Below are positions 18,201 through 50,402 of a stretch of 64,000 nucleotides of DNA, in pieces. This stretch comes from Mugil cephalus (Eukaryota > Chordata > Actinopteri > Mugiliformes > Mugilidae). Under the pieces are notes generated by a model. The model was not told where the DNA came from, did no database searches, and saw only the letters and a list, made by a program, of their open reading frames with translations. Location: positions 997,501-1,061,500 of the forward strand of contig NC_061791.1 in assembly GCF_022458985.1 (NCBI RefSeq), read 5' to 3'. The translations under genes were made by a program, and so were the position numbers. Positions within the stretch are counted from its first letter, which is position 1. The number at the start of each line of letters is the position of its first letter.

Positions 18201-21200
18201 TATGGTAGCATATACCAGATAAAGTTAGCATAAACACTGCAGCATTAGCCCCTTGTATATTAACCTAAAATAGATTATTAGCTAAGAAACATAATATGAG
18301 CTCAAATGACAAACTGTCAGCCTGTAAAAGAAGCAGTAGTTGCAACATTAGCCAAAACTAGATAGTGCTAGCTTCTTAGCTTAGCTTAAACAAGAGTGAG
18401 CTAGCTTATTTCTTAACTTATTCCATTAGCTCCCACATTTGTAATGGTATGTTAATGTAATTCAAACAGAGCTAGACTCCTATTATCCTGAGAAAGATAA
18501 CGTTAGCCACTTCGTTAGCTTCAGACAATTGTATGGTAGCATATACCAGATAAAGTTAGCATAAACACTGCAGCATTAGCCCCTTGTATATTAACCTAAA
18601 ATAGATTATTGGCTGAGAAACATAATATGAGTTGAAATGACAACATGTAGCTTCTTAGCTTAGCTTAAACAAGAGTGGGCTAGCTTATTTCTTATCTTTA
18701 GCTCCCACATTTGTAATGGTATGTTAATCTAATTCAAACAGAGCTAGCCTCCTATTATCCTGAGAAAGATAACATTAGCCACTTCGTTAGCTTCAGGCAA
18801 ACTTCCTGTAGCAGGTTTAGCGTTAGCTTCTTACGGTGGTCGGTCCGGGTGCTTTCCTGCCGCAGGCGTCTGTGTCGGCAGGTGATGTTTTTTTTATCAG
18901 AGCTCTGGTTGCGTCAGGAAGACGTCGTCTGTTCCCACGGTGGCTGTGAAACCCTCAGCATCCTGCGCCTTCGACCACAGACGCCAGGAAGTCGACTTAG
19001 CGTCTCTGTCTCTGCAGGTTCCCATGATCGTGAAAGCGCTTCACAAGCAGCTGAAGGAGAAAAGTGTCAAAACCCGCCAGTGTTGCTTCAACATGTTGAC
19101 GGAGCTGGTGAACGTCCTCCCAGGAGCCCTGACTCAGCACATCCCCGTGCTAATACCAGGTAACTCAGCTAATGCTAAAGCTGAAGTTTTTTTTTTTTTG
19201 TGTCGTTAGCGGCGGCGGCGTTAGCGTTAGCGTTTGTGTTCCAGGCATCATCTTCTCCCTGAACGACAAGTCGAGCAGCTCCAACCTGAAAATCGACGCC
19301 CTGGCGTGTCTGCACGTCATCATGGTCACGCACCCGGCCCACGCCTTCCACGCACACGTCCCCGCCCTCGTCCCGCCCGTGGTGGCGTGCGTGGGAGACC
19401 CCTTTTACAAGATCACCTCCGAGGCGCTGCTCGTCACCCAGCAGCTCGTCAAGGTGGGAGTCGAACCCGTGACCTGTGCTCTACCCTCTGAGCCCACACA
19501 GCTGATCTTATCATTCTTTTATTCTTCCCTCCCAGGTTATCCGACCTCTGGACAGCCAATCGGAGGGCTCGGACAGCTTTGACCCCTCCCCTTACATCAA
19601 CGACTTGTTCACCTGCACGATAAGGCGCCTGAAAGCCGCCGACATCGACCAGGAAGTGAAGGAACGCGCCATTTCCTGCATGGGACAGATCATCTGTAAC
19701 CTCGGTAACCGCCGCTCGTTGAGGGATGAAATGTTTTTTTTGTTTTAGCTCTTTGCTAACTTCCTGTCTGGTTGCCTAGGTGACCGTCTTCCCACCGAGC
19801 TTCCGGGTACGCTGCTCATCTTTCTGGAGCGACTCAAGAATGAGATCACGAGACTGACGACGGTTAAAGGTGAGAGACGTGCCCCAAAAACGGCGGCAAC
19901 GCTGGAAATGTGTGTGTTTTAATTAATTAATTAATTTATTTATTTATTTTAGTGAGTCAAACAATCAAAACTTTCTTGAAAACCCAAATGTGAACTGACA
20001 TTAGTTTTCTATCAGACCTTTAATGATGTTTTTGTGTGACGGGATCATTGCAGCATTGAATCAGGTTGTGTTGTGTTGTGTTGTGGTCGTAGCCCCTGAA
20101 TGTTTAATGTGTGTTGTTGCTCTGTGGTCGTCATTTAATCCGTTTTCCCGTGTCTGTGTCTGCAGCGCTGACGCTAATCGCCGGCTCCCCGCTGAAAATC
20201 GACCTGCGGCCGATTCTGCCTGACGCCGTTCCCATCCTCGCCTCCTTCCTCCGCAAGAACCAGAGGGCGCTGAAGCTCTGCACGCTGGCCGCTCTGGACA
20301 TCCTGCTCAGGAACTACAGGTAAACAACCACAGGTGAACTCCCACAGGAAACTACACAGGAAACTACAGAGGGCTTTACAGGGAGGTCCTTCCCTACTTC
20401 CTTCTGTCCTTCCGTCCTTCCTTCCTTCCTTCCTTCCTCCCTTCTGTCTGTGCTTCCTTCTTTCCTTCCCTCTCTCTATCCTTCCTCCCTTCTGTCTGTG
20501 CTTCCTTCTTTCCTTCCCTCTCTCTATCCTTCCTTCCTTCCTTCCTCCCTTCCTTCCTTCCTTCTGTCTGTGCTTCCTTCTTTCCTTCCCTCTCTCTATC
20601 CTTCCTTCCTTCCTTCCTCCCTTCCTTCCTTCCTTCTGTCTGTGCTTCCTTCTTTCCTTCCCTCTCTCTATCCTTCCTTCCTTCTGTCTGTGCTTCCTTC
20701 TTTCCTTCCCTCTCTCTATCCTTCCTTCCTTCAGTTCTTCTTTCCTTCCTTCCTTCCTTCCTTACTTCCTTCTTTCCTTCCTTCCTTCTTTCCTTCCCTC
20801 TCTCTATCCTTCCTTCCTTCAGTTCTTCCTTCAGTTCTTCCTTCCTTCCTTCCTTCCGTCCTTCCTTCCTTCCTTCTTTCCTTCCCTCTCTCTATCCTTC
20901 CTTCCTTCTGTCTGTCCTTCCTTCCTTCCGTCCTTCCTTCCTTCCTTCCTTCCTTACTTCCTTCCTTCCTTCCTTCCTCCCTTCCTTCCTTCCTTCTGTC
21001 TGTGCTTCCTTCTTTCCTTCCCTCTCTCTATCCTTCCTTCCTTCCTTCTGTCTGTGCTTCCTTCCTTCCGTCCTTCCTTCCTTCCTTCCTTACTTCCTTC
21101 CTTCCTTCCTTCCTTCCTTCTGTCTGTGCTTCCTTCTTTCCTTCCCTCTCTCTATCCTTCCTTCCTTCCTTCTGTCTGTGCTTCCTTCTGTCTGTGCTTC

Positions 21201-24200
21201 CTTCTTTCCTTCCCTCTCTCTATCCTTCCTTCCTTCAGTTCTTCTTTCCTTCCTTCCTTCCTTCCTTACTTCCTTCTTTCCTTCCTCTAGTGAATTCTGA
21301 ACGTAACCTGGGAGCTACTGATGCTATTTAGTGAATATAGACATAAAACTAGAAGTTATCTGAACCGATGACCAATATTTAGAGGAGAAACCAAACCTAC
21401 AAAGCTCCAAACTTCATTTATAAACGACAACTGAACTCAAAAAGACACAAAAAGAAGAGATATTCAATAACTCAAATGTTATTTTATGATGCTTTATTTT
21501 TTTTTTGTTTTTTTTTTTGCAATGACATAGATTAAAATGGAATACAATGGAATTAAATGACATAAAACAGGATAGAAGACAATAAAGTAGAATAAAAGAA
21601 AGTTAAATAGAAATAAATGGAATAAAAGGAAGGTAAATAGAAATAAATGAAATTAAATGAAGGTAAATAGAAATAAATGGAATAAATGAATACTGTAGGG
21701 AACTCCTGCTCCACTGGTCTGTGTTTTGCTGAAACCACTAGAACAGAAGGTCTCCTCGTATGTCTGATCTGGGAACTGGGAAATCAGAAGAACCAGCTGG
21801 TGTTGTGTTTAGGCTTCATTAGATGTTCTTTGAAAGAAGCCACGATCACTTTGTCAATCACTGGTCGCTCTAGATCCATGAAAAACACAATAGCGTGTGC
21901 AGACTTCCACTTTTTGTGCAGGTCCTCCCAAACGGCCTTGTCGAGCTTCATGAACCTTTTCGTGGGGATGTTAATGTTCTCACGCTGGAATTCAGCCCAG
22001 ATTTTCGTGTACAGTCGGTAACGGATGGCCTCAAACTGGTCGAAATCGTATGGTATTTTTGCTTTTGCAAAGGCCCTTAAAACCAGGCACTCAACAAAAG
22101 TGCTGACACACGTTTTGCACCTTTCTTGTTCGTCTGTTGAGGACTCGGTAAATTTTGGCTCAGACTGTACAGTGTCGTCCTCAACTACTGGGATCTCCAG
22201 AGAGGAGGGCTTCTTCTGCTTAGAGTCTGGGCCTGGTGTCTCTTTCGGTGATTGGTGACGTTTGGTCACTTCCATGATGGGGGTCTCTGGTGAGCGGCGG
22301 GCAGGGGTAACGTCTGGAGATGTTACTGTGGTTGATGCCTCTCCAGCGCGTGGTCTCACAAACAAGCCTCTAAACGCGCTACCGAGTCTTTTCAGGGACC
22401 ATCTCTTTCTTGGACGTGTCGCTGGTGAAGGTGTCTCCTCCACATCCTGGACTTTTTCGCCCTCAGACTGAACTGTGCCACCCTCAGCTATTGAAAGTTG
22501 CAGAGAGGAGGGTTTCATCTGCTCTAAGTCTTGGGCTCGTGTCTCTTTCGGTGACTGGTGATGTTTGGTCACTTCCATGGTGGGGGTCTCTGGTGAGAGG
22601 CGAGTGGGGGTAACGTCTGGTGACTGCGTTGATGCCTCTCCAGCACGTGATTTCACAAACAAGCCTCTAAATGCTCTTTTCAGAGACCATCTCTTTCTTG
22701 GACTTTTTGCCGGAACATGTGTCTCCAGATCCTGAACTTCTTCAACCATGAACTGAGCAATGCTGTCCTCAACTACTCTGTCCAGAGAGGAGGTCTCCAA
22801 CTGCTCAAAGTCTTGGGTTGGTTTGTCTTTTGGTGACTGGTGTTGAGGTGCAGGGATCTCCACGGTGGTGGCCTCTGGTGAGAGCTCGGCAAATGGTTTT
22901 ACACACACCCGTCTACATTTGGTTCCTTTACGAGTCAATTTCTTTTTGGACTTCAGACCTGTGGCTTTCAGACCCTGAACTTCTTCAGCCTCAGACTGAG
23001 CAATGCTGTCCTCAACCTCTCTGTCCAGAGAGGAGGTTTCCAGCTGCTCAAAGTCTTGGGCTGGTTTGACTTCAGGATCTAGGAGCACCACAGCCATGGC
23101 CTCTGAAAATTCCTCATCGGGAACAGTGACCACCACAGTAGTGACCTTCTGCTGAGACCCAACTCTATCTGTAGAGGCAGCTTTTGATGACCTCATAGAG
23201 GGTGATCTGACTACAGCAGGTCGCACCTTGAAAATCCTTTAGCACAGAAGCCCTTAGTCTTGAATTTCAAAGACAGTTTCTTCTTGGACTCCGGGCAAAC
23301 AATTGAAGCCTGGCTCACTGCGAAGCTCTCGGTCTCTTCGTCAGACTCAGCGTCTTCATCTTCCACGACTATGATCTCCAGGGAGGAGGGTTCCTGGTGT
23401 CCACATTCTGGAGGTGTTCTGTCATCTGGTATGTGATGTTCAGGTACAACCACCCTCACAGCGGAGCCTTCCTGAAACTGCTGCTCAGGTACAACCAGCA
23501 CCACAGCAGCAACATCTGGAAGCTGCTGCTCGGGCACAATGACCTTTACAGAGTTCAGCTGTGGGACGTCTGGTGACTGTGTTGATGCCACTGTGACTCC
23601 AGCACGAGGCTTTCTGAATAAAGGTTTCACAAAGAACCCTTGAATTATGCCCCCCATTCTCTTCAGGGACAGTTTGCATGTCCTGGATTTAGGAGTCTGG
23701 ACCTCTTCATCTGCAGACCAGTCTGGGACTGCTTCTCCTTGGAACTCCTCTCTGTCTATGTCTGTTTCTGTTGTATAAGTCTTGCAGCTCTCCTTGTCTC
23801 CTATGGAGGCTGTCTCCTGGGTGTATGCGTCAAATATTTGAATGTCACTTTTAGTTTTTGTGGACTCCAAATATTCTGTCATTTTGTCAGTGTCTTCGTC
23901 TTCCAGGGGGGTGGCCACACTTTTCTTCTTTTTCCTCTTATTTGTTCGAGGTCTGTGCGTCATCATCCCAATAAATTCTTCCAACATCTTGCTGATGTAG
24001 CGAACCATACGTCTGATTCTTCTTTTGGGAGTGACGTGTCTTTGGACTTCCTGCTCTTCAGTGTCATCGCCAGCAGAGAGGATGGAGTTGACGCTCTCAG
24101 CTACGTCTCGGGCAATTAAGCTGGTCAACACCTCTGAGCTCTCAGAGCAAACCTCTTCTTTAATGTCCAGGACTTCAGCAAAGGTTTGGGTAAGTGTGTC

Positions 24201-27200
24201 GCCCACACTGATCAAGACAGCTTCCTCAGAAATATGACGCCTTTGATTGATTTTCTCCAGGATGAATTTGGAGATTAGCATGATCAAGTCTGTGACGAGC
24301 TGTGCCAGCATAGAACTGGTAATATCGTCTGGTTTGCCTGAACTCAAACATGCCCACTGGTCGGATGTGATGCCGTTGAAAAAGGATTCAATCAGTGGAC
24401 GAACCATGTCCACAGTGATCTGTGGGACGTTGTGAGCAATGCTGTCCTCAACTACTCTGTCCAGAGAGGAGGTCTCCAACTGCTCAAAGTCTTGGGCTGG
24501 TTTGTTTTTCGGCGACTGGTGTTGAGGTGCAGGGATCTCCACGGTGGTGGCCTCTGGTGAGAGCTGGGCAGGTGGTTTCACACACAAGCCTCTACATTTG
24601 GTTCCTTTCCGGGACAATTTCTTTTGGGACTTTGGATCTGTGGCTTTCAGACCCTGAACTTCTTCAGCCTCAGACTGAGCAGTGCTGTCCTCAACTACTC
24701 TGTACAGAGAGGAGGTTTCCAGCTGCTCAAAGTCTTGGGCTGGTTTGACTTCAGGATCTAGGAGCACCACAGCCGTGGCCTCTGAAAATTCCTCATCGGG
24801 AACAGTGACCACCACAGTAGTGACCTTCTGCTGAGACCCAACTCTATCTGTAGAGGCAGCTTTAGATGACCTCATAGAGGGTGATCTGACTACAGCAGGT
24901 CGCACCTTGAAAATCCTATTAGCACAGAAGCCCTTCATTTTGAATTTCAAAGACAGTTTCTTCTTGGACTCCGGGCAAACAATTGAAGCCTGGCTCACTG
25001 CGAAGCTCTCGGTCTCTTCGTCAGACTCAGCGTCTTCATCTTCCACTACTATGATCTCCAGGGAGGAGGGTTCCTGGTGTCCATATTCTGGAGGTGTTCT
25101 GTCGTCTGGTATGTGATGTTCCGGTACAACCACCCTCACAGCAGAGCCTTCCTGAAACTGCTGCTCAGGTACAACCAGCACCACAGCAGCAACATCTGGA
25201 AGCTGCTGCTCAGGGCACAATGACCTTCACAGAGTTCAGCTGTGGGACGTCTGGTGACTGTGTTGATGCCACTGTGACTCCAGCACGAGGCTTTCTGAAT
25301 AAAGGTTTCACAAAGAACCCTTGAATAATGCCCCCCATTCTCTTCAGGGACAGTTTGCATGTCCTGGATTTAGGAGTCTGGACTTCTTCATCTCCAGACC
25401 AGTCTGGGACTGCTTCTCCTTGGAACTCCTCTCTGTCTATGTCTGTTTCTGTTGTATAAGTCTTGCAGCTCTCCTTGTCTCCTATGGAGGCTGTCTCTTG
25501 GGTGTATGCGTCAAATATTTGAATGTCACTTTTAGTTTTTCTAGACTCCACATCTTCTGGTTTGTCTTTCGGTGACTGGTGTTGAGGTGCAAGGATCTCC
25601 ATGGTGGTGGCCTCTGGTGAGAGCTGGGCAGGTGGTTTCACACACAAGCCTCTACATATGGTTCCAACTTCTTTCCGGGACAATTTCTTCTGGGACTTTG
25701 GACCTGTTTCTTTCAGACCCTGAACGTCTTCAGCCTCAGACTGAGCAATGCTGTCCTCAACTACTCTGTCCAGAGAGGAGGTTTCCAGCTGCTCAAAGTC
25801 TTGGGCTGGTTTGACTTCAGGATCTAGGAGCACCACAGCCGTGGCCTCTGAAAATTCCTCATCGGGAACAGTGACCACCACAGTAGTGACCTTCTGCTGA
25901 GACCCAACTCTATCTGTAGAGGCAGCTTTAGATGACCTCATAGAGGGTGATCTGACTACAGCAGGTCGCACCTTGAAAATCCCTTTAGCACAGAAGCCCT
26001 TAGTCTTGAATTTCAAAGACAGTTTCTTCTTGGACTCTGGGCAAACAATTGAAGCCTGGCTCACTGCAAAGCTCTCGGTCTCTTCGTCAGACTCAGCGTC
26101 TTCATCTTCCACTACTATGATCTCCAGGGAGGAGGGTTCCTGGTGTCCATATTCTGGAGGTGTTCTGTCGTCTGGTATGTGATGTTCCGGTACAACCACC
26201 CTCACAGCAGAGCCTTCCTGAAACTGCTGCTCAGGTACAACCAGCACCACAGCAGCAACATCTGGAAGCTGCTGCTCAGGCACAATGACCTTCACAGAGT
26301 TCAGCTGTGGGACGTCTGGTGACTGTGTTGATGCCACTGTGACTCCAGCACGAGGCTTTCTGAATAAAGGTTTCACAAAGAACCCTTGAATTATGCCCCC
26401 CACTCTCTTCAGGGACAGTTTGCATGTCCTGGATTTAGGAGTCTGGACTTCTTCATCTCCAGACCCGTCTGGGACTGCTTCTCCTTGGAACTCCTCTCTG
26501 TCTATGTCTGTTTCTGTTGTTGTCTTGCAGCTCTCCTTGTCTCCTATGGAGGCTGTCTCCTGGGTGTATGCGTCTAATGATTGAATGTCACTTTTAGTTT
26601 TTGTAGACTCCAGATCTTCTGACTTTTTGTCAGTGTCTTCGTCTTCCAGGGGGGTGGCCAGACTTTTCCTTTTCCTCTTATTTTTTCTGGGTTTGTGCGT
26701 CATCTTTGCAATAAATTCTTCCAACATCTTGCTGATGTAACGAACCATACGTCTAATTCTTCTTTTGGGAGTGACGTGTCGTTGGACTTCCTGCTCTTCA
26801 GTGTCCTCGCCAGCAGAGAGGATGGAGTTGACGTTCTCAACCACGTCTTGGGCAATTAAGCTGGTCAACGCCTCTGAAGTCTCAGAGCGGACCTCTTCTT
26901 TAATGTCCAGGACTTGAGCAAAGGTTTGAGGAAGTGTGTTGCCCACGCTGGTCAAGACACCTTCCTCAGAAATAAGATGCCCCTGTTTGATTTTTTCCAG
27001 CAAGGAACTGGAAATGAGCTCTATCAAGTCTGACAGCAGCTGTGCCAGCATAGAACAGGTAATATCGTCTGGTTTACCTGAACTCAAACATGCCCACTGG
27101 TCTGTTGTGATGCTCCTGAAAAAGGATTCGATCAGTGGACGAACCGTGTCCACTGTGATCTGTGGGATTTCCTCTGTCTGGGAATAGCTCCCTCTGTCCA

Positions 27201-30200
27201 TTGGACCTGTTGTTGTTGTTGTATTACGATACATAATCTTGGATGTGTAGGTTGACGGGTTTGAAAGTTTCAAGTTGCCCGAATAGCGTTGCTTTTTTAT
27301 CGAAGATCAAGCGATTTAACTATCTAACTCTTCTCTCTGATAAATCTCGTATGAATCTCGTATGTATCTCTGATGAATCTTGTGTGAATCTCGTGTGAAT
27401 CTCTGATGAATCTCTAGTGAATCTCTAATGAATCTCTAATGAATCTCTGGTGAATCTCGGATGACTCTTTGATGAATCGGCTCCTATTTAAGGTCTCTGA
27501 GATCAAAGGCACAGTTCTTTTGAGATCAAAGGCACCGTGCCTTTGATCTCAAAAGAACTGTGTCTTTGATCTCTGCTAATTGTGGGCGGGGCTTAGGAGA
27601 TTCCATCACATCATGTGACATCATCACAACATCAAGTGTTGAGTGACGTAATCACTATGGCAACACAGAGACTCTGACATCATCACCATGGCAACACCAC
27701 AGCAGTGAGGTCAGGATTCAAGATTCAAGATGGCTGATTCTACTGTCTTAATAAAAGTCCATAATTATGGTACTATCCAACTATTAAAAACAATTTATGC
27801 TTAATATGAAATGTCTGTTTTTGTATTAGGTCTTCAAGATTCAAGATTTCTTTATTGTCAATTTCCCTTCATGTTCCGAATATAGAGATTAAAAATCTGA
27901 GTGAACAAAATGCAAAGGCAAAAAATAAAACAGATTAAACAAAACCTTCTGAGAAAGATGTAGTACTTTAATAAATCAGCTCAATCGGTGCAATGTACGG
28001 TGCAACAGGGTGTAGTAATGTCCAGTAAGGTTTGCAATATGGTGCAGTAAGATACAATACGGATTAATTAGGTGCAATAAGTTGTAGTAACGTGCAGTAA
28101 TCTGTGCAATAAAGTGCAATACATTGTAATAAGGCGCAATAAGGTGCAGAAATGTGTGCAGTGAGATGCAACATGGTGCATGTGTGCAATAAGATGCAGT
28201 AAGAAACAGTCAGGGGCAGTGATGTGCAATAAGGTGCAATAAGGTTTAATAATATGCAGTTAGTTGCAGTAAGTTGTGCAATAACTTGTAATAACGTGCA
28301 GTAATATGTGTAATAGGGTGCAGTGAGGTGCAATAAGATCAATAAGCACCATGACTGAGCTGCATTCAGTCCGTGATCGTTACTCTCTCCACCTAAACTC
28401 ATGGTCACCGGCCTTTTGTTTCTCTCCATGAAGCCATAATCTAAACTTTGCATTCTTAAATTCAACTCCCCCAATGTAACATGTTGTTCTTTTAACAGTG
28501 GCTCTATCTAGCTTCCCAGCTAACCGTAGCTCTTCTTAGTTTCTTGGCCTCCCAGCTAACTGTAGCTCTTCCTAGCCTCCAAGCTAACGGTAGCTCTTCC
28601 TAGCTTCCTTGCTATGTTGGCCTAAATCTGCTATTAGGTAAGGTGACCAGTTTTCTGAAATTAAATTAGGAGACGTCGTAGCTCAACATTGACTTTCTCT
28701 GTGGTCCACTAGTTGCCGCCAAACCAAGCATTGACTAAATGGAAGTGAATGAGAAAACGTTTATTTAGAAATATAAATCTTTAAAGGTCATATACGACGT
28801 TTGTACTCGGAAAATGAACCTTAAATAAACAAATCTGGCCTCCCAGCTAATAGCAGTAGATCGTCTTAGCTTCCCAGCTAACGGTAGCTCTTGGTGGCGA
28901 CCAAGAGGCCTGATTAACAACGTCCAGAAGGAGGTCGTGGACTTTTTTAGAGCTGCTGTCCTGTATCTGCCGGGGCAGGACGGTGGACGTTGTGTGGACT
29001 TAAACTTACACTGCAGACGACTCGGCTATGACAAACTTTTGTTCCCGGTCCAACCTGAGTCGGTGGATTTAACTGGACTAACATCATCCAGAAGAAAGAC
29101 ATCTACGTCCTCAGCGTGTAGGTGTCAAACTCACCCTGGCAGGGCTGAACGTGTCCAGGTGGACTGTACAAACCTCCTGTCAATAAATGGACAGGATTGT
29201 ACACGGGGCCATAGCTACAAACAGTATCTGATGCACCTTTGGTCTGGACACAGGGGACGACTGTCCCTCCTGTTCCCAGTCAGAGACCGTCCTCCATCTC
29301 TTTGTCCAGTGTCCCAGATTAGAGGCTCTGTTCAGGCTCCTAAAGAGGTGGTTTCAGGGGTTTGGTCCCGGTTTTATCTTTTAGTCCCAGACAGAAGTCT
29401 GTCCACCAGCTGACTAACTTTGTTTCAGGGACATCTGGAAGACCAGGAGGGTCAGGGTCAGGGGTCAGGGGATGCGGTGTCCATGGTGACCGGGCTGCTT
29501 TTAGTTCAGAGTTCAGCTTTAAGAGACTGACAGGACGAACGCAGGAGGACGTCCTGTGTTCAGTTAGAGGACACTCTCTGGTCCTGAACTTTAACAACTT
29601 TTTGTTGGTTTTTATTTACTTTGTTGGTAAAAAAAGAAATGGGATAAATTGTAAATAGAAGAATTAGCAATAAAGGTTTATTTAAAATCCAAAAAAATCC
29701 TTCCTTCCTTGTTGTGTATTTCATTCATTTTATTTTCTCTCTCCTCACCAAATAAGTAAGTCAGCCCCGCCCACCCCCCCCACCTTTAGCCCCGCCCTCT
29801 GACCTCTGACCTCTGTGTATGTGTGTCCCTCCCCAGCTCGGCGGTGACCCCCGTCATGGTGGACGCCGTCCTGGCCGAGCTGCCGCCGCTGATCTCAGAG
29901 AGCGACATGCACGTGTCCCAGATGGCGCTGAGCTTCCTGTCCACGCTGGCGCTCACCCACCCCTCCTCCCTGGGGCAGCTGACCGGGGGCAACATCCTGC
30001 AGCAGCTCATCGCCCTCGTCAGGTCGCCGCTGCTGCAGGGGGGGGCGCTGGCCGCCATGCTGGACTTCTACCAGGTACACGGGGGAGGAGGGAGGGAGGG
30101 AGGGAGGGAGGGAGGGAAGGAAATGAGGAAGGCTGGGGCTGCAGGACGCTTGTCTTCACACGTGTCCTAACGGGGGCGCGTCCCTGGTCCTGATGCTGTG

Positions 30201-31739
30201 TGTTCCAGGCCCTGGTTTCCACGGAGACGCCCGGTCTGGGCTACATGGACCTGCTGAGGATGCTGACGGGGCCGGTTTACTCGCAGACGGCGGCGCTGCC
30301 TCACAAACAGGCCTATTGCTCCATCGCCAAGTGTGTGGCCGCCCTCACCAGAGCCTGTCCCAACGAGGGCCCCGCCGTGGTGGGCCAGTTCATCCAGGTA
30401 CGCAGGCCACGCCCCCTTCTGTCTGTCCGTCCATACAGGTACGCAGGCCACGCCCCCTTCTGTCTGTCCGTCCATACAGGTACGTAGGCCACGCCCCCTT
30501 CTGTCTGTCTGGCCTTCATCCAGGTACGCAGGCCACGCCCCCTTCTCTCTGTCTGTCCTTCATACTGGTGTGTAGGCCACACCCCCTTCTGTCTGTCTGT
30601 CCTTCATCCAGGTATGTAGGCCACGCCCCCTTCTCTCTATATCTGTCCTTTATACCGGTATGTAGGCCACACCCCCTTCTGTCTGTCTGTCCTTCATCCA
30701 GGTATGTAGGCCACGCCCCCTTCTCTCTGGCTGTCCTTTATACCGGTATGTAGGCCACGCCCCCTTCTCTCTGTCTGTCCTTCATACCGGTGTGTAGGCC
30801 ACGCCCCCTTCTCTCTGTCTGTCCTTCATACAGGTATGTAGGCCACACCCCCTTCTGTCTGTCCGTCCTTCATACAGGTATGTAGGCCACGCCCCCTTCT
30901 ATCTGTAGGCCACGCCCCTTCTCTCTGTCATTCTTCCAGGTATGTAGGCCACGCCCCTTCTCTCTATCTGTCCTTCTTCCAGGTATGTAGGCCACGCCCC
31001 CTTCTGTCTTTCTGTCCTTCATACCGGTATGTAGGCCACGCCCCCTTCTGTCTGTAGGCCACGCCCCCTTCTCTCTGTCTGTCCTTCATACAGATATGTA
31101 GGCCACGCCCCCTTCTCTCTATCTGTCCTTCATACAGATATGTAGGCCATGCCCCCTTCTGTCTGTAGGCCAAGCCCCCTTCTCTCTGTCTGTCCTTCAT
31201 TCTCTCCCTTGTGTCTGACAGGATGTGAAGAACAGCCGGTCCACAGACTCCATCCGTCTCCTGGCTCTTCTGTCCCTGGGGGAGGTTGGACACCACGTGG
31301 ACCTGAGCAGCCAGCCCGAGCTGAAGACCGTCATCCTGGACGCCTTCTCGTCCTCCAGCGAGGAGGTGAGATGAGTTGTTGTTGTGTCTTAGTGTGTCCC
31401 AGGTGTGTAACGGTCTCCATTCAGACCCTGACCCGGACTCTGTGCTGGTGCAGGTGAAGTCGGCGGCTTCGTACGCGTTGGGCAGCATCGCGGTGGGAAA
31501 CCTGCCCGAGTACCTGCCCTTCGTCCTCCAGGAGATCTCGTCCTCCAAGAGACAGTATCTGCTGCTGCACTCGCTCAAGGAGATCATCAGTGAGACGCAC
31601 AAATATATACACACTACACTATATACACTACACACACACACATATATACTACACTATATACTACACACACACACACACACATATATATACTACACACACA
31701 CACACATATATATACTACACACACACACACACACATATA

Positions 31740-31783
<44 letters not shown>

Positions 31784-34700
31784 TACACACACACACACAC
31801 ATATATACTACACACACACACACACATATATACTACACACACAACAACACATAAACACACACACACACACATATATACACACACACACACCACAAACTAC
31901 CACACACACACTAATATACTATACTACACACACACACACACATATATATACTACACACACCCCACACATACAATACTACACACACACACACATAATACTA
32001 CACATTAAATACACACACACACACATATATACTACACACACACACACACACTACACACACACACACACACACACACACACTACACACACACACATATACT
32101 ACACACACTGTATTAAAACATGGAGGGAGAACATTGTGTTCCTGTGGTTCTGAGCCGTGTTCCTGTGGTTCCGTGTGCAGGTTCTGCCTCGGTGTCGGGT
32201 CTGAAGCCGTACGTGGAGTCGGTTTGGTCTCTGCTGCTCAAACACTGCGAGTGTCAGGAGGAAGGAACCAGGAACGTCGTGGCCGAGTGTTTGGGGAAAC
32301 TGACCCTGATCGACCCGGAGACGCTGCTGCCCCGCCTCAAAGGATACCTGCTGTCAGGTGACTGCTCTCAGCCAATCAGCCGCCTCCTCCTCCCTCCGGG
32401 TCTGAATGTAAATGTAACGTGTTGGTTCTGCAGGTTCCTCGTACGCCCGGAGCTCCGTGGTGACGGCCGTGAAGTTCACCATCTCTGACCAACCACAGCC
32501 CATCGACCCCCTGCTGAAGAACTGCATAGGTAACACACACACCTGGATATATGCTAATATATAAATATATATATATACATATACACCTCCAGGGTCTTTA
32601 ATGCTTTGATTTAAAAAGTCTGGATTTTAAGAAGAAACATGGAGAAATTATCAGTTAATTTCCAGTTTGACACATTTCTGTTTGTAGCTGAGGAACTAAA
32701 AGAGCAGGAAACGTGTTTAACGTTTAAACCGTTTTTAAAACGTTCATTTAACGTCGTGGAGTCACCTCCTCCTCCTCCTCTGATTGGCTCTTCTTCTTCT
32801 TCTTCTTCGTCGTCTTCTTCGTCTTCAGGTGATTTCCTGAAGACGTTGGAGGACCCGGACCTGAACGTGCGCCGCGTTGCCTTGGTAACGTTTAACTCGG
32901 CCGCCCACAATAAACCGAGTCTGATCAGGGAACTGCTGGACCTGGTTTTACCACAACTCTACAACGAGACCAAGGTCAGGAAGGAGCTGATCAGAGAGGT
33001 GAGACCAGGACCTGTTCCCTCCTTCCTTCCTTCCTTCCCTCCTTCCTTCCTTCCTTCCTTCCTTCCTTCCTTCCTTCCTTCCTTCCTTCCTTCCTTCTTT
33101 CTATCTTTCCTTCTCTGGAGGTTGTTTGATAGATGAGTGGGGCTTGGCTGGTCTAAGGGGGTTCTAGGTGGGTCTAAGGGGGTACTAGGTGGGTCTAAGG
33201 GGGTCCCAGGTGGGTCTAAGGGGGTTCTAGGTGGGTCTAAGGGGTCTATGGGGGTACTAGGTTGGTCTAAGGGGTCTAAGGGGGTCCCAGGGGGGTCTAA
33301 GGGGTCTAAGGGGGGTTCTAGGTGGGTCTTAGGGGGGTTAAAGGTGGGTCTAAGGGGGTCCTAGGTTGGTCTAAGGGGGTTCTAGATGGGTCTAAGGGGG
33401 TTCTAGGTGGGTCTAAGGGTCTAAGAGGGTTCTACGTTGGTCTAAGGGGGTTCTAGGTGGGTCTAAGGGGGTTCTAGGTGGGTCTAAGGGGGTTCTAGGT
33501 TGGTCTAAGGGGGGTTCTAGGTGGGTCTAAGGGGTCTAAGGGGGTCCCAGGTGGGTCTAAGGGGGTCCCAGGTGAATCTAAGGGGGTCCCAGGTGGGTCT
33601 AAGGGGGTTCTAGGTGGGTCTAAGGGGGTTCTAGGTTGGTCTAAGGGGGGTTCTAGGTGGGTCTAAGGGGTCTAAGGGGGTCCCAGGTGGGTCTAAGGGG
33701 GTCCCAGGTGAATCTAAGGGGGTTCTAGGTGGGTCTAAGGGGGTTCTAAGTGGGTCTAAGGGGGTTCTCGGTTGGTCTAAAGGGGGTACTAGGTGGGTCT
33801 AAGGGGGTTCTAGGTGGATCTAAGGGGTCTAAGGGGGTCCCAGGTGGGTCTAAGGGGGTTCTAGGTGGGTCTAAGGGGTCTATGGGGGTCCCAGGGGGGT
33901 CTAAGGGGGTCTAAGGGGGTCCCAGGTGGGTCTAAGGGGTCTAAGGGGCTTATAGGTGGGTCTAAGGGGGGTTCTAGGTGGGTCTTAGGGGGGTTATAGG
34001 TGGGTCTAAGGGTCTAGGGGGGTTCTAGGTTGGTCTAAGGGGGTTCTAGATGGGTCTAAAGGGTCTAAGGGGGTCCTAGGTGGGTCTAAGGGGTTCTAGG
34101 TGGGCCTAGGGGGGTTCTATGTGGGTCTAAGAGGGTTCTACGTTGGTCTAAGGGGGTTCTAGGTGGGTCTAAGGGGGTTCTAGGTGGGTCTTGGGGAGTC
34201 CCTGGTGTGTCCTCTGGTGTCTGACTGTCGTCCTGACTGGGTCCAGGTGGAGATGGGTCCGTTCAAACACACCGTGGACGATGGTCTGGACCTGAGGAAG
34301 GCTGCGTTCGAGTGCATGTACACTCTGCTGGACAGCTGCCTGGACCGGATCGACATCTTCACCTTCCTGAACCACGTGGAGGACGGACTGAAGGACCATT
34401 ACGACATCAAGGTGGAGCCTCGCGTCGCAGCATCTGCTCTTAAATAACGCGCCGCTGTGATGGAGACTCTCTGACGGACTGGACTCTGTTCTGTTGTTTC
34501 CAGATGCTGACGTTCCTGATGCTGGCCAGACTCTCGTCCTTGTGTCCCAGTGCTGTTCTACAGAGACTGGACCGGCTGGTGGAGCCGCTCAGAGCCACCT
34601 GCACCACCAAGGTACTGGACCCGAACGGACTCTTCACCGGCTTTAACTGATTAGCATCAGTCCACAAGTATCTGTTATAGTAGTAGAGTAGCGGCTCTGA

Positions 34701-36600: not shown

Positions 36601-36774
36601 CCTTCACACTCCGACTGCCTTCATTTCTTTTTGTTCGTGTCGGGACGAATCACAGCGACGGTTCAACATTAACAATAAAAGACCCGGAGACTTTAACCGT
36701 GAAAATACAACAAAAATCACACGAGGTGGTTAAATTAGGCCGATTCAAGCAGAAATGAGGGAAGGAAGAGGCTA

Positions 36775-38377
36775 CAGTGGGGGAAATAAGTATTTGATCC
36801 CCTGCTGAATTTGTAAGTTTGCCCACTTCCATAGAAATGATCAGACTCTGGTTTTTATGGTTGTTTACTGGTTATGGGTATAGACAGAATATCAATCGAA
36901 AATGCATAAAAAACACACAATCTAAAAGTTATAAATTGTTATGTATTTTATTAAGGGAAATAAGTATTTGATCCCCAACAATTCACTTAGAATTCAGGCT
37001 CCTACAGATTGGCTGGTGCGCATGTGGCACACAGCTGTGCTCAGTCAACTAATTACCAATACTCCTGATCTTAACTCGTCATGTATATAAAGCACACCTG
37101 CTCTAAGAATCAGTTTCTTACATTCCAACTTCTACAGCACCATGGGCAAGACCAAAGAGCTGTCAAAAGATGTCAGGGACAAGATTGTAGACCTGCACAA
37201 GGCTGGTATAGGTTACAAAACCATCAGCAAAAGGCTTGGTGAGAAGGTGACAACTATTGGTGCCATTATTCGCAAGTGGAAGACCCATAAAAGGACCATC
37301 AACTGTCCTCGGTCTGGAGCTCCCCGCAAAATCTCGCCTCATGGAGTGAGGATGATGAGAAAGGTGAGGGAGCAGCCTAAAACAACACGGCAGGAGCTTG
37401 TTAATGATCTGGAAGCAGTTGGGACGTCCGTCACCAAGAAAACAGTTGGCAACACACTGCGCTGTTATGGATTGAACTCTTGCAGTGCCCGCAAGGTCCC
37501 CCTGCTCAAGAAGGCACATGTACAGGCCCGCCTTAAGTTTGCCAGTGAACATCTAAATGACTCAGAGAAGGCTTGGGAGAAAGTGCTGTGGTCTGACGAA
37601 ATCAAAGTTGAGCTATTTGGCATTAACTCGACCCGCCGTGTTTGGAGGATGAAAAAACGTGAGTATGACCCAAAGAACACCATACCCACGGTTAAGCATG
37701 GAGGTGGAAACATCATGTTTTGGGGCTGTTTTTCAGCAAAGGGTACAGGGCAACTTCACCGCATTATGGGGCCAATGAATGCAGCCATGTACTGTAACAT
37801 CTTGGACAAAAACCCTCTTTCCTCAGCAAGAACACTGAAGATGCCTCGTGGGTGGGTTTTCCAACATGACAATGACCCAAAACATACTGCCAGGACAACA
37901 AAGGAGTGGCTCAAGAAGAAGCATATTAAGGTCATGGAGTGGCCTAGTCAGTCTCCAGACCTTAACCCGATCGAAAACCTGTGGAGGGAGCTGAAGCTCC
38001 GAGTTTCCAAGAGGCAGCCAAGAAACTTGAAGGATTTAGAGACTGTCTGTAAAGATGAATGGGCCAAAATCCCTCCTGCGCTGTGTGCAAACCTGGTGAC
38101 CAACTACAAGAAACGTCTCATCGCTGTGCTTGCCAACAAAGGTTTCTCTACAAAGTACTGACTTGTGTTGTGTTTGGGGATCAAATACTTATTTCCCTTA
38201 ATAAAATACATAACAATTTATAACTTTTAGATTGTGTGTTTTTTATGCATTTTCGACTGATATTCTGTCTATACCCATAACCAATAAACGACCATAAAAA
38301 CCAGAGTCTGATCATTTCTATGGAAGTGGGCAAACTTACAAATTCAGCAGGGGATCAAATACTTATTTCCCCCACTG
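36775..38377 (+). mobile_element. Complete Tc1/mariner transposon, IR/DR type
   Basis: The 1603-bp element starts CAGTGGGGGAAATAAG and ends in its inverse, flanked by TA on both sides (36773-36774 and 38378-38379). Terminal inverted repeats are 204 bp (36775-36978 and 38174-38377) with about three mismatches. The outer motif AAATAAGTATTTGATCCCC recurs at the inner edge of each repeat, the IR/DR arrangement. It encodes one intact transposase. It may belong to the fish Tc1 group that includes Passport/PPTN, from memory only. It sits just after the cand1 3' UTR. Confidence 0.97.
37142..38161 (+). CDS. Tc1-like transposase, full length (339 aa)
   Basis: This enzyme cuts and pastes its own element at TA dinucleotides. 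The N-terminal paired-like DNA-binding region has two helix-turn-helix segments (about residues 1-110) joined by a [10 protein letters not shown] linker. The catalytic domain shows the DD34E triad: D152 in [13 protein letters not shown]243 in [11 protein letters not shown] and E278 in [24 protein letters not shown] motif sits at 187-198. Length is close to that of Sleeping Beauty (340 aa). There is no internal stop or frameshift, and the flanking repeats are about 98% identical, so the copy looks young and possibly competent. The start is chosen at the ATG with a CACCATGG context. Confidence 0.97.
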
Positions 38378-38384
38378 TAAATAA

Positions 38385-46867: not shown

Positions 46868-50402
<3,535 letters not shown>

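Follow-up and report, generated by a model that had tools for sequence, protein, structure and literature searches.

A putative intronless gene for a repetitive, charge-patterned protein, nested antisense within a cand1 intron of Mugil cephalus

What does the minus strand of a long cand1 intron encode in Mugil cephalus? The window analysed here is a stretch of 64,000 nucleotides (NCBI RefSeq assembly GCF_022458985.1, contig NC_061791.1, positions 997,501 to 1,061,500 of the forward strand); all coordinates below refer to it. The original prediction had placed in it an unrecognised large repetitive protein gene, nested antisense inside intron 16 of cand1. We read the locus as an intronless protein gene with promoter-like and polyadenylation signals of its own, encoding a multivalent scaffold and standing as a candidate Wnt/HMG-box target; to this reading as a whole we give about even chances. 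The coding frame, the repeats, the charge blocks and the consensus TCF/LEF sites are direct observations. The status of the locus as a gene is fairly secure; its mechanism we infer.

Three open frames lie end to end on the minus strand between 21784 and 27306, overlapping by a few bases: 25210-27306 (698 codons), 23211-25226 (671 codons) and 21784-23238 (484 codons). When this 5.5-kb stretch was shuffled 200 times with dinucleotide composition preserved, no frame exceeded 205 codons and the maxima averaged 130, so that the 5.5 kb of long-framed coding sequence first noticed here is well supported. We took the start at the first ATG, at 27234, which has an A at -3; the final stop occupies 21784-21786. 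The span from ATG to stop, 5,448 nt or about 1,816 codons, reads as one intronless gene, but not as a single open frame: comparison with the other internal copies revealed two one-base frameshifts, neither of them in the original prediction. Coding part 1 (25210..27234, minus strand, like the two that follow) holds the ATG, head 1, body copy 1 and the start of body copy 2, and ends in a frameshift-induced stop. Part 2 (23211..25226) contains the remainder of body copy 2, head 2 and the start of body copy 3. Part 3 (21784..23238) runs through the remainder of body copy 3, two further basic modules and the C-terminal block to the stop.

Selection was assessed from substitutions between the internal copies, compared in six frames. 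Summed over all copy pairs (215 differences, non-independent), the ratio of nonsynonymous to synonymous proportions of difference (pn/ps) is 0.44, 0.51 and 0.55 in the coding frame at kappa 1, 2 and 3, respectively, against 0.95-1.45 in frames +1, +2, -0 and -2; frame -1, which shares third positions, gives 0.48-0.57. Block tests for constraint, made with fewer pairs, returned p values of 0.017 for the head, 0.062 for bodyN, 0.0004 for bodyM, 0.19 for bodyC and 0.19 for the C-terminal repeat. Pairwise dN/dS ranges from 0.04 to 1.13 over ten comparisons between internal copies, and the C-terminal repeat has a dS of 0.33 and a dN of 0.20. Within the compared pieces, aligned under guidance of the protein, all length differences amount to whole codons. 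The frame-specific avoidance of amino-acid change between copies indicates that they evolved as coding sequence after duplication. We take the signal as real but moderate; it speaks for past coding evolution rather than for present function. That the locus is repetitive DNA with an open frame arisen by chance, an idea lent some colour by a window rich in minisatellites, is barely credible: the frame-specific substitution bias, together with the frame lengths against shuffles, refutes it in the main.

The first frameshift site (25195..25236, minus strand) is one base longer than both other copies, near 25214; the second (23215..23255, minus strand) is one base shorter than both, near 23237. Both length changes sit in runs of two to three identical bases, within repeats nearly identical to the other copies, a setting in which errors of assembly or polishing are expected. 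At the first one the sequence is an apparent merge of the copy 1 and copy 3 forms, which may resemble a mis-polished consensus. The frameshifts are probably assembly errors or allelic, error of assembly or polishing being a natural reading. A recently dead gene, whose coding selection would be a relic of the past and whose disabling began with the two frameshifts, is a possible but unlikely account: two frameshifts in an otherwise open sequence, a pn/ps that is only moderate and a dN/dS of 1.13 between bodyC copies 1 and 2 would all fit it, whereas about 1,816 codons stay open across the three frames, barring the stops that the frameshifts bring, and both breaks are one-base changes of the very kind and place in which such errors arise.

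The product, if made as we read it, is built of repeats. The coherent amino-acid repeats and duplicated head blocks described at the outset are indeed present: the body unit occurs three times in the DNA, at spacings of about 1,066 and 1,680 nt, with ungapped identities to the reference copy of 96-98% in several 300-nt blocks, falling as low as 84% and 68% in others. Two heads, head 1 at the N-terminus (26650..27234, minus strand) and head 2 internally (23907..24431, minus strand), share about 80% of their amino acids, and near the C-terminus a further block is duplicated. As judged by eye, basic clusters resembling nuclear localisation signals come after each of the heads. The block said to be distinct at the C-terminus is so: nothing else in the window convinces as a second copy of its 121 residues (21787..22149, minus strand), the best other tblastn match having an E-value of 1.9. 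AlphaFold2 models of head 1 and of this block are helical and poor, with a mean predicted local distance difference test (pLDDT) score of 41 and 60, respectively, too weak for use.

Long acidic and basic linkers had also been described. Acidic linkers and basic patches are there, but the basic part proved to be a single repeating module that had been missed: a K/R-rich patch that has [LW]-[ST]-[LR]-K as its core and, after it, a second patch resembling G-[FL]-x-[AV]-K. Eleven such modules span 22398..26415 on the minus strand, and the chain between them is acidic. Ten were found by a pattern with an [LW]-S-[LR]-K core, their Ser codons lying at 26415, 26019, 25680, 25350, 24953, 24614, 23669, 23273, 22686 and 22398; Ser is invariant among these ten because the search pattern demands it. 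The eleventh, recognised by homology, starts at 22944 and has a Thr codon at 22935. Module types align with each other in pairwise BLASTP, for example with 41.7% identity over 60 residues (E 2e-7) or 47% over 112 residues (E 7e-24). For 120-residue segments around the ten modules, neighbours among which may overlap by some ten residues, those listed pairs that are less than 80% identical have E-values from 0.001 to 2e-41. Charge along the chain is blocky: the variance of the net charge of 20 residues is 14.3, 16.1 and 12.3 in parts 1, 2 and 3, above the maxima of 10.2, 11.2 and 11.6 reached in 1,000 shuffles per part. Basic and acidic blocks that alternate in this manner, lying between the heads and the C-terminal block, point to a multivalent scaffold.

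Consistent with the initial failure to name a family, no credible domain match emerged from Pfam-A, searched with the three parts, the heads, the C-terminus and six of the eleven modules: nothing came near a curated cut-off. The best hits, both rejected, were EH_Signature on head 1 (E 0.0031, 17.3 bits where the cut-off is 27.5), head 2 returning no family at all, and ABC_N on part 2 (E 0.004, 17.5 bits where it is 26.5). Sequence searches of the PDB with part 3 and with the head alignment gave no match, neither part 1 nor part 2 being submitted as a whole. A Foldseek search that used the model of the C-terminus listed 47 matches at E <= 10 in the PDB and 83 in BFVD, none of them at E <= 0.001, and we drew no conclusion from these. 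Searches of viral_contigs for the C-terminus and the head, and of genome_contigs for the C-terminus, turned up no relative; these are collections of viral and prokaryote sequences, with little bearing on a fish gene. A literature search returned no publication describing the nested gene by its title or the start of its abstract, which is not proof of absence. Similar uncharacterised proteins presumably stand in teleost entries of public databases, an assumption that we did not use as evidence.

The host was delimited with a human CAND1 query, which yielded 23 tblastn pieces on the plus strand between 12281 and 35550, covering residues 1-1228 minus 866-870. Residue 681 is the last before the intron (piece end 20317, exon end about 20319) and residue 682 the first after it (piece start 29835, exon start about 29837); the splice dinucleotides, GT at 20320 and AG at 29835-29836, were read directly. 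The resulting plus-strand intron, 20320..29836, measures 9.5 kb. Since three of the 13 pieces upstream of the nested gene contain a short read-through intron, 16 exons would precede it, and the designation intron 16 is consistent with this count. With cand1 on the plus strand, the frames on the minus strand and residues 681 and 682 on either side, the antisense nesting claimed in the original prediction holds. No sign of a frameshift was noticed in the cand1 pieces, although the exons were not checked one by one. Large microsatellite and minisatellite arrays occupy 20387-21286, 30389-31200, 31609-32108 and 33015-34191 within cand1, with units that include TCCT/120-bp, 44/111-bp and 21/136-bp. 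Elsewhere in the window, a 38-bp minisatellite of 17.5 copies with 96% matches (48257-48925) is probably recent.

On the promoter side of the nested gene lies a feature absent from the earlier account, a 75-bp palindrome (27499..27573) whose 37-nt arms, 27499-27535 and 27537-27573, are 97% complementary with 1 nt between them; its DNA fold has a z-score of -12.7 against shuffles. It carries three consensus TCF/LEF sites (27501-27509, 27524-27532 and 27540-27548) and one near-consensus site (27563-27572). The consensus, SCTTTGATS as given in excerpts of PMC3916239, has three matches in the 64-kb window, all in the palindrome and within 48 bp; of the five matches of GATCAAAG, four fall in the palindrome region. 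Three sites within 80 bp occurred in none of 200 shuffles, and two sites in three of them. A GC box-like CCCCGCCC was read directly at 27584..27591 on the minus strand, and a TATA-like TTAAATA, by consensus reading only, lies 7 bp downstream of the palindrome (27485..27491, minus strand). The presumed 5' untranslated region consists of an 11-bp minisatellite repeated about 13 times (27334..27478, minus strand), and an AATAAA polyadenylation signal is found about 285 nt past the stop (21493..21498, minus strand). Along the minus strand, the TCF/LEF palindrome is thus followed in order by the TATA-like box, the ATG with its A at -3, the stop and AATAAA.

Could a transposable or viral element have brought the gene along or captured it? 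Internal repeats, the strong palindrome adjoining the gene and a weak A/T-rich inverted pair that flanks it (21483-21502 and 27920-27939, 20 nt, 80%) would agree with such an origin, as would a 194-codon plus-strand frame in the same intron (28829-29410), without a Pfam match, which by eye resembles a decayed fragment of a long interspersed nuclear element. We nevertheless regard this origin as improbable: no stronger flanking inverted repeats of at least 16 nt occur in 21290-29830 (the intron below 21290 not included), no exact direct repeat of at least 10 nt is shared between 21301-21560 and 27301-28600, Pfam-A returned no transposase, reverse transcriptase or capsid, and the C-terminus and head have no viral relative in the collection searched. 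A DNA transposon was rejected, the weak pair being the only candidate for terminal inverted repeats in 21290-29830 and no transposase having matched in Pfam-A. A retrocopy was rejected too, for want of a target-site duplication (no exact word of at least 10 nt shared between the same two intervals), a comparison that would not reveal an old and diverged one. Outside the intron's nested gene, the window holds a seemingly complete transposon of Tc1/Sleeping Beauty type (36773-38379, plus strand), with 206-nt inverted arms that are 99% complementary and TA on both sides; its uninterrupted transposase frame (339 codons, ATG at 37142) matches HTH_SB, HTH_Tnp_Tc3_2 and DDE_3, all above their cut-offs, and the element may be young.

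For the scaffold reading we propose the following mechanism. Transcription would start just downstream of the TCF/LEF-site palindrome, making the gene a candidate Wnt/HMG-box target. Now or until very recently, it would encode a product of some 1,816 residues that arose through internal duplications and consists of two heads, eleven basic modules between acidic linkers and the C-terminal block. The basic patches would bind an acidic partner, be it nucleic acid, phosphoinositide lipid or calmodulin, and the acidic linkers would either offset the charge of these patches or associate with them within the protein. Binding would be weakened when the Ser or Thr of the module is phosphorylated. The heads and the C-terminus would engage specific partners. 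Expression, chain flexibility and every binding partner are presumed here, and a phosphorylation-tuned electrostatic scaffold is the mechanism that we prefer.

Several observations weigh against this proposal. Two frameshifts fall within 5.4 kb. Coding constraint is moderate and uneven, with p < 0.05 in two of the five blocks, and the 1.13 of bodyC copy 1 against copy 2 is of no help; third-position guanine-plus-cytosine content is 0.49-0.52 in the nested frames as opposed to 0.83 in cand1 (13 of the 23 pieces). The total of TCF/LEF sites is not above chance (3 versus 2.77 expected), their clustering being the unusual part, and all of them derive from repeats of a single 23-nt unit, which makes them a lead but does not prove that they function. 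On the charge-hydropathy scale the body falls just on the ordered side (+0.010), and the heads and C-terminus further so (+0.09 to +0.16), so that a largely disordered chain is unsupported, and strong disorder was dropped from the proposal. Hydrophobic moments lie within those of shuffles for all ten modules tried and lend no support to amphipathic helices in them. Likeness to the effector domain of MARCKS (sequence as excerpted in PMC4607481) beats motif shuffles in part 3 only, its score being reached by 83, 53 and 2 of 500 in parts 1, 2 and 3, and in the first two parts is mostly a matter of composition; its rarity against shuffled proteins (8, 5 and 1 of 500) mainly shows that basic residues are clustered. 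Two other candidate motifs scored about as expected by chance. For one resembling that of DGK-zeta, which hardly exceeds chance if at all, 59, 56 and 15 of 500 motif shuffles equalled or bettered the score. The amphipathic RII-binding helix pattern of AKAP proteins has one strict match per head, at the same place, and none in part 3, but 142 and 216 of 1,000 shuffles achieve this too and CAND1 has one, which is chance level.

If functional, the locus would add a large vertebrate protein without a domain recognised in the libraries searched, and its repeats, modules and promoter region yield predictions specific enough to be tested with the usual means of zebrafish or medaka research. If dead, it would be an instructive case of early decay in a repetitive nested gene, or of assemblies breaking such genes. 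Its novelty would rise if the palindrome were a true Wnt element and the gene family spanned fishes. The boldest extension, quite improbable in our estimate, is a fish-lineage family of giant charge-patterned scaffolds with MARCKS-like phospho-switch modules, driven by Wnt/beta-catenin, perhaps maternally or in the early embryo, through a natural TOPFLASH-like palindrome in the intron of a cullin-ligase regulator.

How does the locus compare with known systems? An N-terminal myristoylation signal begins with Met-Gly; here MARCKS and AKAP12 differ from the nested-gene protein, which begins MYRN, without Met-Gly. Neither MARCKS nor AKAP12 (gravin) matched the parts, heads, C-terminus or six modules at the Pfam level. 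The likeness to MARCKS, AKAP79 and gravin lies in a Ser between basic and hydrophobic residues and in basic patches within an acidic chain. The calmodulin sites of AKAP79 and gravin that we compared come from excerpts of PMC5698441, where three candidate sites are named in gravin, as against eleven modules here.

As to its place in the host, the gene lies complete within one intron of cand1 on the opposite strand, its frame broken twice. Nested antisense intronless genes are described as common in mammals in excerpts of PMC8467205, and this uncharacterised repetitive gene belongs to that already known class, although its coding sequence of about 5.4 kb is long for an internal gene. Finally, three perfect SCTTTGATS sites and one near-consensus site beside a TATA-like box recall the multimerised TCF/LEF reporters of TOPFLASH type. 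This locus differs from them in being natural and palindromic, with three perfect sites and one imperfect. According to excerpts of PMC3916239, endogenous Wnt elements lack perfect sites clustered as densely as those of reporters, which typically have 4-7; if it functions as a Wnt element, the palindrome with its cluster of TCF/LEF sites would give the synthetic Wnt reporter a rare counterpart in nature.

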